Below are positions 2,741-8,602 of a DNA stretch of 37,016 nucleotides, piece by piece. The stretch is taken from assembly GCA_030833665.1 (NCBI GenBank), contig JAURGT010000015.1, positions 1 through 37,016 on the forward strand, in the 5' to 3' direction. The notes under the pieces are model-generated. The model was not told the origin of the DNA, did not search any database, and saw only the letters and a program-made list of their open reading frames with translations. The translations under genes and the position numbers were made by a program. The DNA is from Miltoncostaeales bacterium (GTDB lineage Bacteria; Actinomycetota; Thermoleophilia; Miltoncostaeales; Miltoncostaeaceae). The first letter of the stretch is position 1; each line of letters begins with the position of its first letter.

Positions 2741-2875
2741 CTACGCGGAGAGCCGGGCGCGGCCCTTCGCGCGGCGACGCTTGATGATTGCCTGGCCGGC
2801 GCGAGTGGACATGCGCTTGCGGAAGCCATGGGTCTTGCTGCGCTTCCGCGTGTTCGGCTGGTAGGTGCGCTTCAC
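2741..2875 (-). CDS. rpmH: 50S ribosomal protein L34
   Basis: A 44-residue, very basic protein starting (GTG) [20 protein letters not shown], the standard L34 sequence, and ending with [13 protein letters not shown] place the start at 2875 rather than at a longer upstream frame, because L34 always begins directly at this motif. An AGGAG lies 10 nt upstream of the GTG. It is the first gene of the minus-strand operon leading to rnpA, yidD, yidC, jag and rsmG, so its promoter must lie in the origin-proximal gap 2876-3280. Confidence 0.96.
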
Positions 2876-3090: not shown

Positions 3091-3147
3091 GCGTCCACAG
3101 TTGTGGACACTCCTGTGGATAGCCGCTGTTTTCCCTGCTCATCCACA
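3091..3147. promoter_or_regulatory. Cluster of four DnaA-box-like sites
   Basis: Compared with TTATCCACA/TTGTCCACA, the sites are GCGTCCACA (3091-3099, plus, two mismatches), GTGTCCACA (3110-3102, minus, one), CTATCCACA (3122-3114, minus, one) and TCATCCACA (3147-3139 region, read on plus as 3139-3147, one). The first two face each other, giving the near palindrome TCCACAGTTGTGGA. Four boxes in 57 nt next to dnaA indicate DnaA binding, for origin function, dnaA autoregulation or both. Confidence 0.7.
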
Positions 3148-3217
3148 TTTGCTCATGCACGCTTTCTCGGCTGCTGCGCGGTCGCGCCCCGGTTTTTCCC
3201 GCTCATACGTCCCCCGA

Positions 3218-3226
3218 TTGTCCACA
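3218..3226 (+). promoter_or_regulatory. Perfect DnaA box
   Basis: TTGTCCACA matches the high-GC actinobacterial DnaA box exactly. It lies 38 bp upstream of the putative -10 (3264-3269) of the GHKL-dnaA operon, a position from which DnaA could regulate its own operon. Confidence 0.8.
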
Positions 3227-3263: not shown

Positions 3264-3269
3264 TAGCGT
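3264..3269 (+). promoter_or_regulatory. Candidate -10 element of the GHKL ATPase-dnaA operon
   Basis: TAGCGT fits TANNNT and ends 11 nt before the ATG of the ATPase gene, predicting a leader of only a few nucleotides. No ribosome binding site is visible before that ATG and no clear -35 is present. It belongs to a pattern seen at several other operon starts in this window. Confidence 0.45.
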
Positions 3270-3280
3270 CCCGCCCCCGA

Positions 3281-4009
3281 ATGAGCACGGAACTTCCCGA
3301 CAGCCTGGCGGCACTGCATGTACCGGGCACCACGTATGTGGTGCGGGTCGCCGTGCACCGGGCCGCCCTCGAGCCGCCGGGCATCACAGAGGTGCGTGAC
3401 ATCGCGCCCGCGGCCGTGATCGAGGCCACCTTCTCGGTAGTGGCCCGGGAGTCTTCCGTGCCTCCGCTCGCGCTGCGTGAGGTGATCGAGAACCTCATCC
3501 ACGCCGACTTCCGCGACGCCCTCGTCACCGTGCTTGACGGCGGGCGCACCGTGCGTGTGTCGGATCGCGGCCCGGGCATTCCCGACCCGAGGCGGGCCGT
3601 GGAGCCCGGCTACACCAGTGCCGATGAGTCGATTCGCGCCGTCGTGCGCGGCTGTGGCTCAGGGCTCGGGTTGGCGTCGGGGCTGGTGGCCGCAGAGGGG
3701 GGACTCCTCGAGATCGAGGAGAATCTCGGTGGCGGCACGGTGGTGACAATCACCGTCGATGCCCCTCCCGCCCCGGAGCCCGCCGGCGAGCCCGGCCAGC
3801 CCAACGACGTGCAGCGCAGCCTCCTCGCGCTGCTGCTCGAGATGGCGCCGGCGCACCCGGAGACCATGGCCCGCGAGCTCGGGCTTCCACTGGGCGAGGT
3901 CGGGCGCGAGCTGGTGATGCTCGAGCACCGGGGCCTCGTCGTGCGCTTCGCCGATGGCGGGCGGGTCCTCACCGAGCGCGGTGCCGCGATAGTGGCGACC
4001 CTCTTCTAG
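3281..4009 (+). CDS. GHKL-type ATPase fused to a C-terminal winged helix, upstream of dnaA
   Basis: A 242-residue protein with a histidine-kinase-like ATPase fold and no phospho-acceptor domain. The N-box is REVIENLIHADF (E70, N71), the G1 box is SDRGPGI (D95-G99), the G2 box is GCGSGLGLA (124-132), and GGTVVTITV closes the Bergerat fold. A Pro-rich linker (161-175) leads to a region (176-240) that reads as a winged helix: ETMARELGLPLGEVGRELVML, then HRGLV and a wing with GGRVLTERG. The first 55 residues match nothing I recognise. No HisKA domain, PAS domain or membrane segment is visible, so it is soluble and probably binds DNA. It ends 3 nt before dnaA, implying co-translation and a role tied to replication initiation. 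Function is unknown; a SpoIIAB/RsbW-like kinase is an alternative but does not explain the winged helix. Confidence 0.85.
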   Translation: MSTELPDSLAALHVPGTTYVVRVAVHRAALEPPGITEVRDIAPAAVIEATFSVVARESSVPPLALREVIENLIHADFRDALVTVLDGGRTVRVSDRGPGIPDPRRAVEPGYTSADESIRAVVRGCGSGLGLASGLVAAEGGLLEIEENLGGGTVVTITVDAPPAPEPAGEPGQPNDVQRSLLALLLEMAPAHPETMARELGLPLGEVGRELVMLEHRGLVVRFADGGRVLTERGAAIVATLF

Positions 4010-4012
4010 CCG

Positions 4013-5434
4013 ATGAGCTCATCCGTTCCGATCATCCAGGACCAGGAGCGTCTCGGGGCCATCTGGCTCCAGGTGCTGGAGCGCCTGCGCGGTGCTCTCA
4101 ACAGTGCGACCTACAGCCTCACGTTCGAGAGGGCGTGCGCCCTCGGGCTCGAGGGTGGCCGCTTCCGCATCGGGGTCGAGACCGAGTTCGCCCGTGGGTG
4201 GATCGTGCAGCGCTACGACTCCCTCGTGCGCGACGCGTTGTTCGAGGTGCTCGGGCACGATGTCGTCGTGAACGTCGAGGTGGTCGCCCCGGCCGAGGTT
4301 CCCGCGGGCCCCGCCACGCCCGCGACCGCGGTAGCCACACCCCCCAGGCCCGAGCCGGTGATTCCCCCCACCCAGAACGAGATTTCTTCCCGTTTGCAGG
4401 CGCGCTTTACGTTCGACGCCCTGGTGGTGGGGCCAAGCAACCGGTTCGCGCACGCGGCCGCGCTGGCGGTGGCCGAGACGCCCGCGCGCGCCTACAACCC
4501 CCTCTTCATCTATGGCGGCGTGGGGCTGGGAAAGACCCACCTGCTTCATGCGATCGGGCACTTCGTGGCCGAGCATCACCCCGGGCTGTCCGTTCGGTAC
4601 GTCTCGGTGGAGACCTTCACGAACGAGTTCATCAACGCGCTTCGCGACGGTGGCATCAGGTCGTTCAAGGACAGCTACCGCAGTACCGACATCCTCCTGA
4701 TCGACGACATCCAGATGCTGGAGGGCCGCGAGCAGACGCAGGAAGAGTTCTTCCACACATTCAACGCGCTGCACGAGCACGGCAAGCAGATCGTGATCTC
4801 CAGCGACCGTCCGCCGAGCGCGATAAAGACGCTCGAGGACCGGCTGCGCTCGCGCTTCGAGATGGGTCTCATCACCGACGTCCAGCCACCGGACCTCGAG
4901 CTGCGCATCGCCATCCTCCGCAAGCGCGTGCAGACGGACGGCTACCAGATCCGCGACCCCGAGGTGCTGTCGTTCATCGCCGCGCGGGTGTCGACCAACG
5001 TGCGGCAACTCGAAGGCGCGCTGATCCGGGTGGTCGCGCACTCCTCCATCTCCGGACGCCCCGTGACGGTGGACCTCGCCCAGGAGGTCCTCACCGACCT
5101 CTTCCCAGGTGGTGCGGGGGAGCTGCGCATCGACCTGATCCAGGAGGCGGTCGCCCGCCACTACTCGATCAGCATCGATGAGCTGGTGGGGGACAAGCGC
5201 ACCAAGCGCGTGGTGATCCCGCGCCAGGTGGCCATGTACCTCTCGCGGGAGCTCACCGATGCCTCCCTCCCCACGATCGGCAGGGCGTTCGGCGGACGCG
5301 ACCACACCACGGTGATCTACGCGGTGCAGAAGGTGACGAAGCTTCTCGCCGAGGGTGGGGATGTCTATGAGGCCGCCCAGGCCCTCACCCTGTCGCTCAC
5401 GGGCGTCACTCGCGCGTCTTCCCCCGGTAGCTAG
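4013..5434 (+). CDS. dnaA: Chromosomal replication initiator protein DnaA
   Basis: DnaA binds DnaA boxes and opens oriC in its ATP form. The 473-residue product has domain I (1-90) and a short Ala/Pro-rich domain II linker (91-120). AAA+ domain III starts at [20 protein letters not shown], with Walker A GGVGLGKT (168-175) and Walker B LLIDDIQ (228-234). Domain IV carries the DNA-binding signature [12 protein letters not shown] around residues 423-434. The length is close to that of B. subtilis DnaA, shorter than the long-linker Streptomyces protein. ATG start is 3 nt after the GHKL gene stop with no own promoter visible between. DnaA boxes lie on both sides of the two-gene operon. Confidence 0.98.
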
Positions 5435-5588
5435 GCCGCTCGCCCCAGCCTCCGGGCCTGTTTCACGGCCTCGTAAGGTTCGGGCCCAGTCCCTCCCGTC
5501 CACGCCCTCTGCGCATATCCGTGCTCGGAGCGCGTTTCTTGCGTGTGGTCCCACTGTGTGGGAAATGGGTGGGGTGCTGGGGATTACC

Positions 5589-5597
5589 TGTGGACAA
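5589..5597 (-). promoter_or_regulatory. Perfect DnaA box in dnaA-dnaN gap
   Basis: TGTGGACAA on the plus strand is the exact reverse complement of TTGTCCACA. It is the only perfect box in this gap; the others differ at two or more positions. Confidence 0.8.
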
Positions 5598-5794
5598 CCC
5601 GTGCAGGGTGGTGGTGTCCCTCAACACCTGTCCAGCGGCGCTGGGCCAAGCGGTTTAGGCACTGTGGGCGGGTGTTGATGGGTGGTGGGGTTATCCCGTG
5701 TGGCCCACAACTCCTCCACAGGCTGGAAAGGTGCCTTTACGCGGCGATAACAGTGGTTCGTCCACGAATTCCACAGGGCCTACGACTACTGCGG

Positions 5795-5824
5795 TCAATC
5801 TCTCTATAGATACTTCACATCAAC
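5795..5824. other. AT-rich tract, candidate DNA unwinding element
   Basis: This 30-nt stretch is about two-thirds A/T and includes TCTATAGATA, which is striking in a genome this GC-rich. It lies about 200 bp from the perfect DnaA box and about 60 bp before dnaN. No clean DnaA-trio array is visible to me. It could be the first melting site of oriC or part of a dnaN promoter. Confidence 0.5.
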
Positions 5825-5843
5825 GTCACTGTGTGGAGCCAGG

Positions 5844-5871
5844 CACCCCGGGCACATCGATCGCCGGGGTG
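5844..5871. repeat. 8-bp perfect inverted repeat just before dnaN
   Basis: CACCCCGG (5844-5851) and CCGGGGTG (5864-5871) flank a 12-nt loop. The right arm ends 2 nt before the candidate dnaN -10 (5874-5879), so a bound dimeric protein would cover the -35 region. There is no T-run, so it does not look like a dnaA terminator. Confidence 0.5.
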
Positions 5872-5873
5872 GG

Positions 5874-5879
5874 TACGCT
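5874..5879 (+). promoter_or_regulatory. Candidate -10 of a leaderless dnaN transcript
   Basis: TACGCT ends 6 nt before the GTG start of dnaN, which has no Shine-Dalgarno sequence. The spacing would put the transcription start at or beside the start codon. Confidence 0.5.
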
Positions 5880-5885
5880 CCTGCC

Positions 5886-8127: not shown

Positions 8128-8602
8128 GAGGCGCCAGGACCCGGTGGGCGTGGGGGACCTCCTCGGCCGCGCCACCCGCAGGTTCACCCGGCCGGGTGAC
8201 TCGGTGCTGGCCTCGGTGCGCGCGGCCTGGCTCGAGGCCACCGGCTCCGGCACGGTGAACCACGCGTATCCCGTCCGGCGCAGCAGGGCCGGGGTGGTCA
8301 CCGTGGCCTGTGCCGATGCCGTGTGGGCACAGGAACTCGATGCCCGAGGGGAGGAGATCGAGGCCCGACTGGCGGAGATCATCGGCGACCCCGCCGCGGT
8401 CGCGGGGCTGCGGTTCGTGGTGGCCGACCACGCGCTTCCCGCACCCAGCCCCGGCCCGGGCGCGCGGGATCCCCTTCCTCCACCGGACCCCGGGGCCGTG
8501 CAGCGCGCGGAGCAGGCCACACGCGATATCGAGGATCCTGTGCTTCGCGAGCTGGTCACACGTGCTGCAGCACGCGCGCTGGAGCGTGACAACGGGTCCT
8601 GA
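8117..8602 (+). CDS. dciA: DciA-like helicase loader (DUF721)
   Basis: DUF721/DciA proteins help load the DnaB helicase and typically lie between recF and gyrB in actinobacteria, exactly as here. The 161-residue product has a basic start (LRRRRRQDPVG), the central domain LASVRAAWLEATGSGTVNHA, then GVVTVACADAVWAQELDARG, which is the family's conserved VxxxSxxWAQEL pattern. An acidic/Pro-rich tail follows. I used the TTG at 8117, with GGAGG 6 nt upstream and an 11-nt overlap with recF; GTG at 8144 (after AGGAGG) is a good alternative. The C-terminal 50 residues look partly disordered. Confidence 0.85.
   Translation: MRRRRRQDPVGVGDLLGRATRRFTRPGDSVLASVRAAWLEATGSGTVNHAYPVRRSRAGVVTVACADAVWAQELDARGEEIEARLAEIIGDPAAVAGLRFVVADHALPAPSPGPGARDPLPPPDPGAVQRAEQATRDIEDPVLRELVTRAAARALERDNGS

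Follow-up and report, generated by a model that had tools for sequence, protein, structure and literature searches.

The gene immediately upstream of dnaA in the DNA analysed here (the window, 37,016 nt) encodes a protein that combines a GHKL ATPase domain with a C-terminal winged helix (GHKL-WH), and dnaA is the next gene on the same strand in all 110 distinct homologues from the Actinomycetota and Bacillota in which this can be evaluated. The linkage demonstrates that the pair is under selection and points to shared expression, and does not in itself give the mechanism. We propose that the GHKL-WH protein is inherited vertically and serves as a dedicated control factor of DnaA. Both of its domains are of known kinds, and a search of open-licence papers found no description of the two combined in an obligate dnaA partner.

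The GHKL-WH gene and the organization of the origin region

The window comes from an actinobacterial draft genome (1.62 Mb, 70% GC) and represents its origin region; among the named close relatives of this genome are MAGs of Thermoleophilia and Miltoncostaeales. The GHKL-WH gene (3281-4009, plus strand, 242 aa) heads a unit of two genes, the second being dnaA (4013..5434, plus strand; Bac_DnaA, 239.8 bits). Its TAG stop codon (4007-4009) is separated by the spacer CCG from the dnaA ATG at 4013, and the 3 nt interval described in an earlier reading of the sequence alone is borne out by these coordinates. Upstream lies the divergent rpmH (2741..2875, minus strand), with rnpA, yidC and jag beyond it on the same strand, and the plus-strand order is GHKL-WH gene, dnaA, dnaN (5886), recF, dciA, gyrB and gyrA. 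The dciA gene, coding for the helicase operator DciA, is at 8129-8602 (plus strand; PF05258, 35.3 bits), between recF and gyrB. The description of the two genes as translationally joined holds for the window's genus, where the interval is mostly 3 nt with a 1-nt overlap in one locus (L008), and for some Coriobacteriia with possible 4-nt overlaps; it does not hold elsewhere, where the two genes lie tens to a few hundred nucleotides apart.

A scan of 20 loci for DnaA-box-like sites, allowing one mismatch, counted 0.3-0.4 sites per kb inside the genes, compared with 5.1 in the DNA upstream of the GHKL-WH gene and 7.4 in the dnaA-dnaN interval. These densities on both sides support the proposal of the sequence-only reading that the origin is bipartite, and place the GHKL-WH gene and dnaA between its two halves. 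The upstream cluster, TCCACAnnTGTGGA with CTGTGGATA (3097..3124, no strand assigned), is conserved in the genus and family, and TCCACAnnTGTGGA itself (3097-3112) consists of two DnaA boxes head to head in inverted orientation; it is kept upstream of the gene in almost all loci aligned from the window's family and from the Coriobacteriia. A further box, TTGTCCACA, was found by the scan at 3218..3226 on the plus strand. The second cluster occupies the interval between dnaA and dnaN (5435..5885, no strand assigned) and includes, at 5769-5793, a box followed by GGCC and then the trio-like CTACGACTACTGC. This element varies yet is recognisable across the genus, and its box and trio-like triplets resemble the basal unwinding system (PMC10721633); it is probably the basal unwinding element of oriC. 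GC skew gave no origin position in this 70% GC window.

Domain architecture and conserved residues

Residues 64-162 (3470..3766, plus strand) match Pfam HATPase_c with 37.2 bits (cut-off 26.4), a model that also matches all 34 family members tested, and residues 166-242 (3776..4006, plus strand) form a winged helix according to Pfam, the AlphaFold model and the MarR-like folds matched in VIA-align, with DprA_WH covering residues 166-226 at 28.3 bits (cut-off 22.9). An AlphaFold2 model of the window protein on the family alignment has a mean pLDDT of 80, with the winged helix mostly at about 84-95, and an independent model of a coriobacterial homologue with 38% identity has a mean of 84 and exceeds 90 across most of both domains. 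Each contains the GHKL sandwich, three helices and a beta wing, and the predicted recognition helix lies at approximately residues 204-216 and contains R209. The protein has the N-box ExxxN, DxGxG, glycine-rich lid and alpha/beta sandwich of the GHKL superfamily, and the three-helix HTH with beta wing of a winged helix is found by Pfam, in the two models and among the fold matches. The earlier assignment of a Bergerat ATPase with a C-terminal winged helix is thereby sustained by two Pfam models over their cut-offs and two agreeing structure predictions, the winged helix having high confidence (pLDDT mostly 84-95) in both. In the model of the window protein, strands and one helix, some 60 residues in all, precede the N-box helix, and an extra N-terminal strand is conserved.

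Several domains of related proteins were looked for and not found. There is no HisKA match at E values up to 1 and no DHp hairpin in the model, in agreement with the earlier statement that a histidine phospho-acceptor is absent. The RsbW-type HATPase_c_2 model scores 18.8 bits against a cut-off of 27.4 and spIIAB 19.3 against 135; the window protein matches DprA_WH alone, with no Rossmann-fold DprA core, and profile searches found no AlbA_2 domain in it or in the family. PADLOC returned only weak HTH matches, and a role in anti-phage defence was rejected on this ground. In several genomes of other families a long, low-complexity linker rich in P and Q separates the two domains (L145, 1364-2728, minus strand; L151, 1625-3100, minus strand; L142, 31-1179, plus strand; positions on the minus strand refer to the reverse complement of the locus), and the GHKL and winged-helix domains therefore likely work as separate modules.

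The GHKL motifs are the N-box E67xxEN71xxHA75, D95RGPG99 and the lid G124CGSG128. Across 117 homologues there is no variation at N71, H74, A75, D95, G97, G99, G110, G124, G126, G128 or G141; Glu occupies position 67 in 115 of the 117, and R209 is Arg in 114 of 116. The motifs named in the sequence-only reading (E70/N71, D95-x-G-x-G and GCGSGLGLA) are real and conserved, with one refinement, that the hydrolase-type pair is E67-x-x-x-N71. An E-xxx-N N-box is typical of hydrolases and protein kinases such as MutL, GyrB and SpoIIAB, whereas histidine kinases have N-xxx-N. Because of this box, the missing DHp histidine and the near invariance of the catalytic residues, the protein is not a degenerate kinase, and judging from its residues it likely hydrolyses ATP.

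Distribution of the family and its linkage to dnaA

A scan of named genomes gave 36 loci, 35 of which contain family members; the remaining one (L042) is an ordinary kinase-like match. Profile surveys detected the family in 150 of the 390 good Actinomycetota genomes, in 35 of the 398 from the phylum of a Bacillota carrier, and in none of 200 genomes from a control phylum, that of L042. There is as a rule one copy per genome, with E values of 1e-68 to 1e-116 and the next GHKL match at 1e-10 or weaker, a gap that clearly sets the family apart from histidine kinases. Many Actinomycetota do not have the gene, including sister families of the same class, in which no homologue is present between rpmH and dnaA.

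The downstream DNA was long enough for evaluation in 110 of the 117 distinct homologues; in the other seven the contig or locus ends within 364 nt. A neighbourhood survey had been suggested from the sequence alone, and it found the homologues not to be scattered, each of the 110 preceding dnaA. Because the records of some complete genomes were opened near dnaA, the gene stands right at their start or end. Those members of the genus and family without a match are also without an assembled dnaA locus (G008 has a dnaA fragment only), and gene loss was rejected as an explanation because the dnaA loci are unassembled there. Taxonomic groups cluster in a tree of 55 gene sequences (five changes, the least possible), which is consistent with vertical inheritance. 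Four public MAG records (L009, L011, L015 and L007) are titled Bifidobacterium breve or Acidobacteria; these titles look wrong, since the dnaA loci of all four belong with the window's genus, at 76-94% identity.

An upstream repeat and a candidate promoter

Two copies of the 13-nt direct repeat TTTTYCCYGCTCA are present upstream of the gene in the same orientation and 64 bp apart, at 3129..3141 and 3193..3205 (both plus strand; 152 and 88 nt before the ATG), and these are the only two in the 1.62 Mb assembly; a control search of the whole assembly with the reversed pattern found none. The position of the proximal copy is fixed in the genus, at -87 to -90 in nearly all members, and most other genera in the window's family have variants between -81 and -118. 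The repeat is absent before dnaA in class-mates without the GHKL-WH gene, and it was not seen as an enriched motif in the Coriobacteriia or Bacillota. We consider each copy a candidate operator of the window-family lineage, to which the winged helix might bind, and since TTTTYCCYGCTCA is found in the window's own family only, it may belong to another factor. The TTTTYCCYGCTC repeat was rejected as the operator of the whole protein family because it does not extend beyond the window's family.

Alignment of the genus shows a conserved -10-like hexamer, TAGCGT (3264..3269, plus strand). As it lies just 11 nt before the ATG, it suggests a possible leaderless promoter and message. A scan for consensus sigma-70 promoters found none.

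Mutual exclusion with YabA in the Bacillota

YabA is an inhibitor of DnaA in B. subtilis. Among the 398 genomes sampled from the Bacillota phylum, it is present in none of the 35 family carriers compared with 185 of the 363 others (Fisher p 9e-11, uncorrected for phylogeny), a p-value that overstates the case because the genomes are related; 178 of the 398 have neither YabA nor the family. This pattern fits a shared role in DnaA control, and it may mirror only phylogeny.

Proposed role and alternative explanations

The sequence-only reading proposed a factor that controls initiation, dnaA expression or the structure of the origin, together with three tests by which it could be refuted, concerning the winged helix, the linkage to dnaA and an anti-sigma partner. 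All three were run and none refutes it; with a predicted winged helix, universal dnaA linkage and no anti-sigma partner at the locus, a control factor is the best-supported class. We infer the following course of events, for which the balance tips slightly in favour. The protein would probably be made from the same message as DnaA, and its amount would follow that of DnaA because of this shared message. Its GHKL domain would bind and probably hydrolyse ATP, and nucleotide binding is expected to alter its conformation or dimer state, as in other GHKL proteins. This switch would govern binding of the winged helix to DNA in the origin or dnaA promoter region, where the TTTTYCCYGCTCA repeats and the DnaA boxes clustered upstream are the candidate sites in the window's family. 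Once bound, the protein would repress or gate transcription of the unit that its gene forms with dnaA, or alter DnaA loading on the upstream half of the origin, or both, and initiation would thereby be tied to nucleotide state. The winged helix could instead bind protein rather than DNA. A more far-reaching version, which we regard as somewhat less likely than not, is an ancient initiation switch common to two phyla, one that is made with DnaA, reads nucleotide state, directly gates DnaA at oriC or dnaA transcription, and fills the role that belongs to YabA, Hda or SeqA in other bacteria.

Four other explanations were weighed. It is unlikely that the protein is a SpoIIAB/RsbW-like Ser/Thr kinase that phosphorylates DnaA or another replication protein, with the winged helix tethering it to origin DNA or a partner. 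Its E-xxx-N pair with a conserved general-base Glu is found in GHKL protein kinases such as SpoIIAB too, and there are weak matches to an NCBIfam anti-sigma F model and, in a PDB profile search, to BCKDH kinase; however, it scores below the HATPase_c_2 cut-off and above that of HATPase_c, and the locus offers no substrate or partner gene, dnaA alone being constant. A search of the locus for a STAS anti-anti-sigma or an anti-sigma partner found neither, its genes being rpmH, rnpA, yidC, jag, dnaA, dnaN, recF, dciA and gyrB only. The RsbW-type explanation, which had been considered from the outset, is not supported by this and by the HATPase_c_2 score, and an RsbW-type partner switch was rejected for want of a partner gene and for scores below the model cut-offs. 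The best scores of the GHKL domain are against histidine kinase catalytic domains, as expected of a degenerate remnant of a two-component sensor kinase, but there is no DHp domain, sensor or response regulator, and the catalytic residues are almost invariant over large distances; this highly improbable explanation was rejected on the absent DHp and that near invariance.

A structural role, in which the protein would shape or tether the origin as an ATP-operated clamp or an architectural factor and would not act on dnaA transcription, seems rather unlikely. The N-box E-V-I-E-N-L-I-H-A is nearer to those of MutL and GyrB than to those of kinases, MutL is among the weak matches, the extra N-terminal strand is conserved, and the gene sits between two DnaA-box clusters; against these features, the protein is short, has no transducer domain of the kind found in gyrase and MutL, and there is no direct sign of work on DNA topology. 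We also think it quite improbable that a general metabolic transcription regulator came by chance to precede dnaA and was kept there by a constrained operon start. The winged helix is MarR/TrmB/IclR-like and the neighbouring rpmH, rnpA and yidC are likewise conserved in place, but the linkage has no exception among the evaluable homologues of two phyla, and the sister families with nothing homologous between rpmH and dnaA argue that this slot is not required to be filled.

What is known of DnaA control comes largely from E. coli, Caulobacter and B. subtilis. A protein with an intact ATPase signature and a recognition helix, found tied to dnaA in a large share of the deep-branching Actinomycetota and in some Bacillota, is a concrete and testable candidate for a control factor in other bacteria. 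If it does gate initiation, replication control would include a switch built on a GHKL ATPase, a role for which we know of no precedent, and there is a real chance that the family represents a new kind of initiation control.

Comparison with known systems

The earlier remark that no system of this form had been described agrees with our search of the open-licence literature, in which no description of a GHKL-WH family partnering dnaA was found. Mycobacteria have no identified homologues of known DnaA regulators (PMC5720831).

The top Foldseek match to the model is DIP2311 (PDB 3LMM) of Corynebacterium diphtheriae, an uncharacterized GHKL protein, followed by histidine-kinase catalytic domains. 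The GHKL part of DIP2311 aligns with the model over 149-150 residues (Z 15, rmsd 2.6-2.8), but its chain is 477-556 residues long with 13-18% identity to the GHKL-WH protein. It presumably carries an N-terminal AlbA_2 domain, and we know of no link to dnaA. The best sequence matches of the ATPase domain are histidine kinase CA domains such as those of HK853, EnvZ and WalK, from which the GHKL-WH protein differs in its E-xxx-N box, its attached winged helix and the absence of the DHp histidine and dimer hairpin. SpoIIAB and RsbW have in common with it a small size, the GHKL fold and an N-box with a general-base Glu; in contrast to them the GHKL-WH protein is below the HATPase_c_2 cut-off, has an extra winged helix, is fixed to dnaA and has no SpoIIAA/RsbV partner. 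With DprA it has the winged helix in common (DprA_WH over cut-off), the Rossmann core being DprA's only. MarR-type winged helices match the model with Z 12-14 over 70-78 residues in VIA-align, whose tables are mostly winged helices and in which the absence of other GHKL folds carries no meaning; the MarR dimer helices are missing from the GHKL-WH protein. To our knowledge, none of YabA, SirA, Soj, Hda, SeqA and DiaA of B. subtilis and E. coli is a GHKL protein or is encoded directly before dnaA, and the likeness of the GHKL-WH protein to them is its proposed dedication to the control of DnaA.
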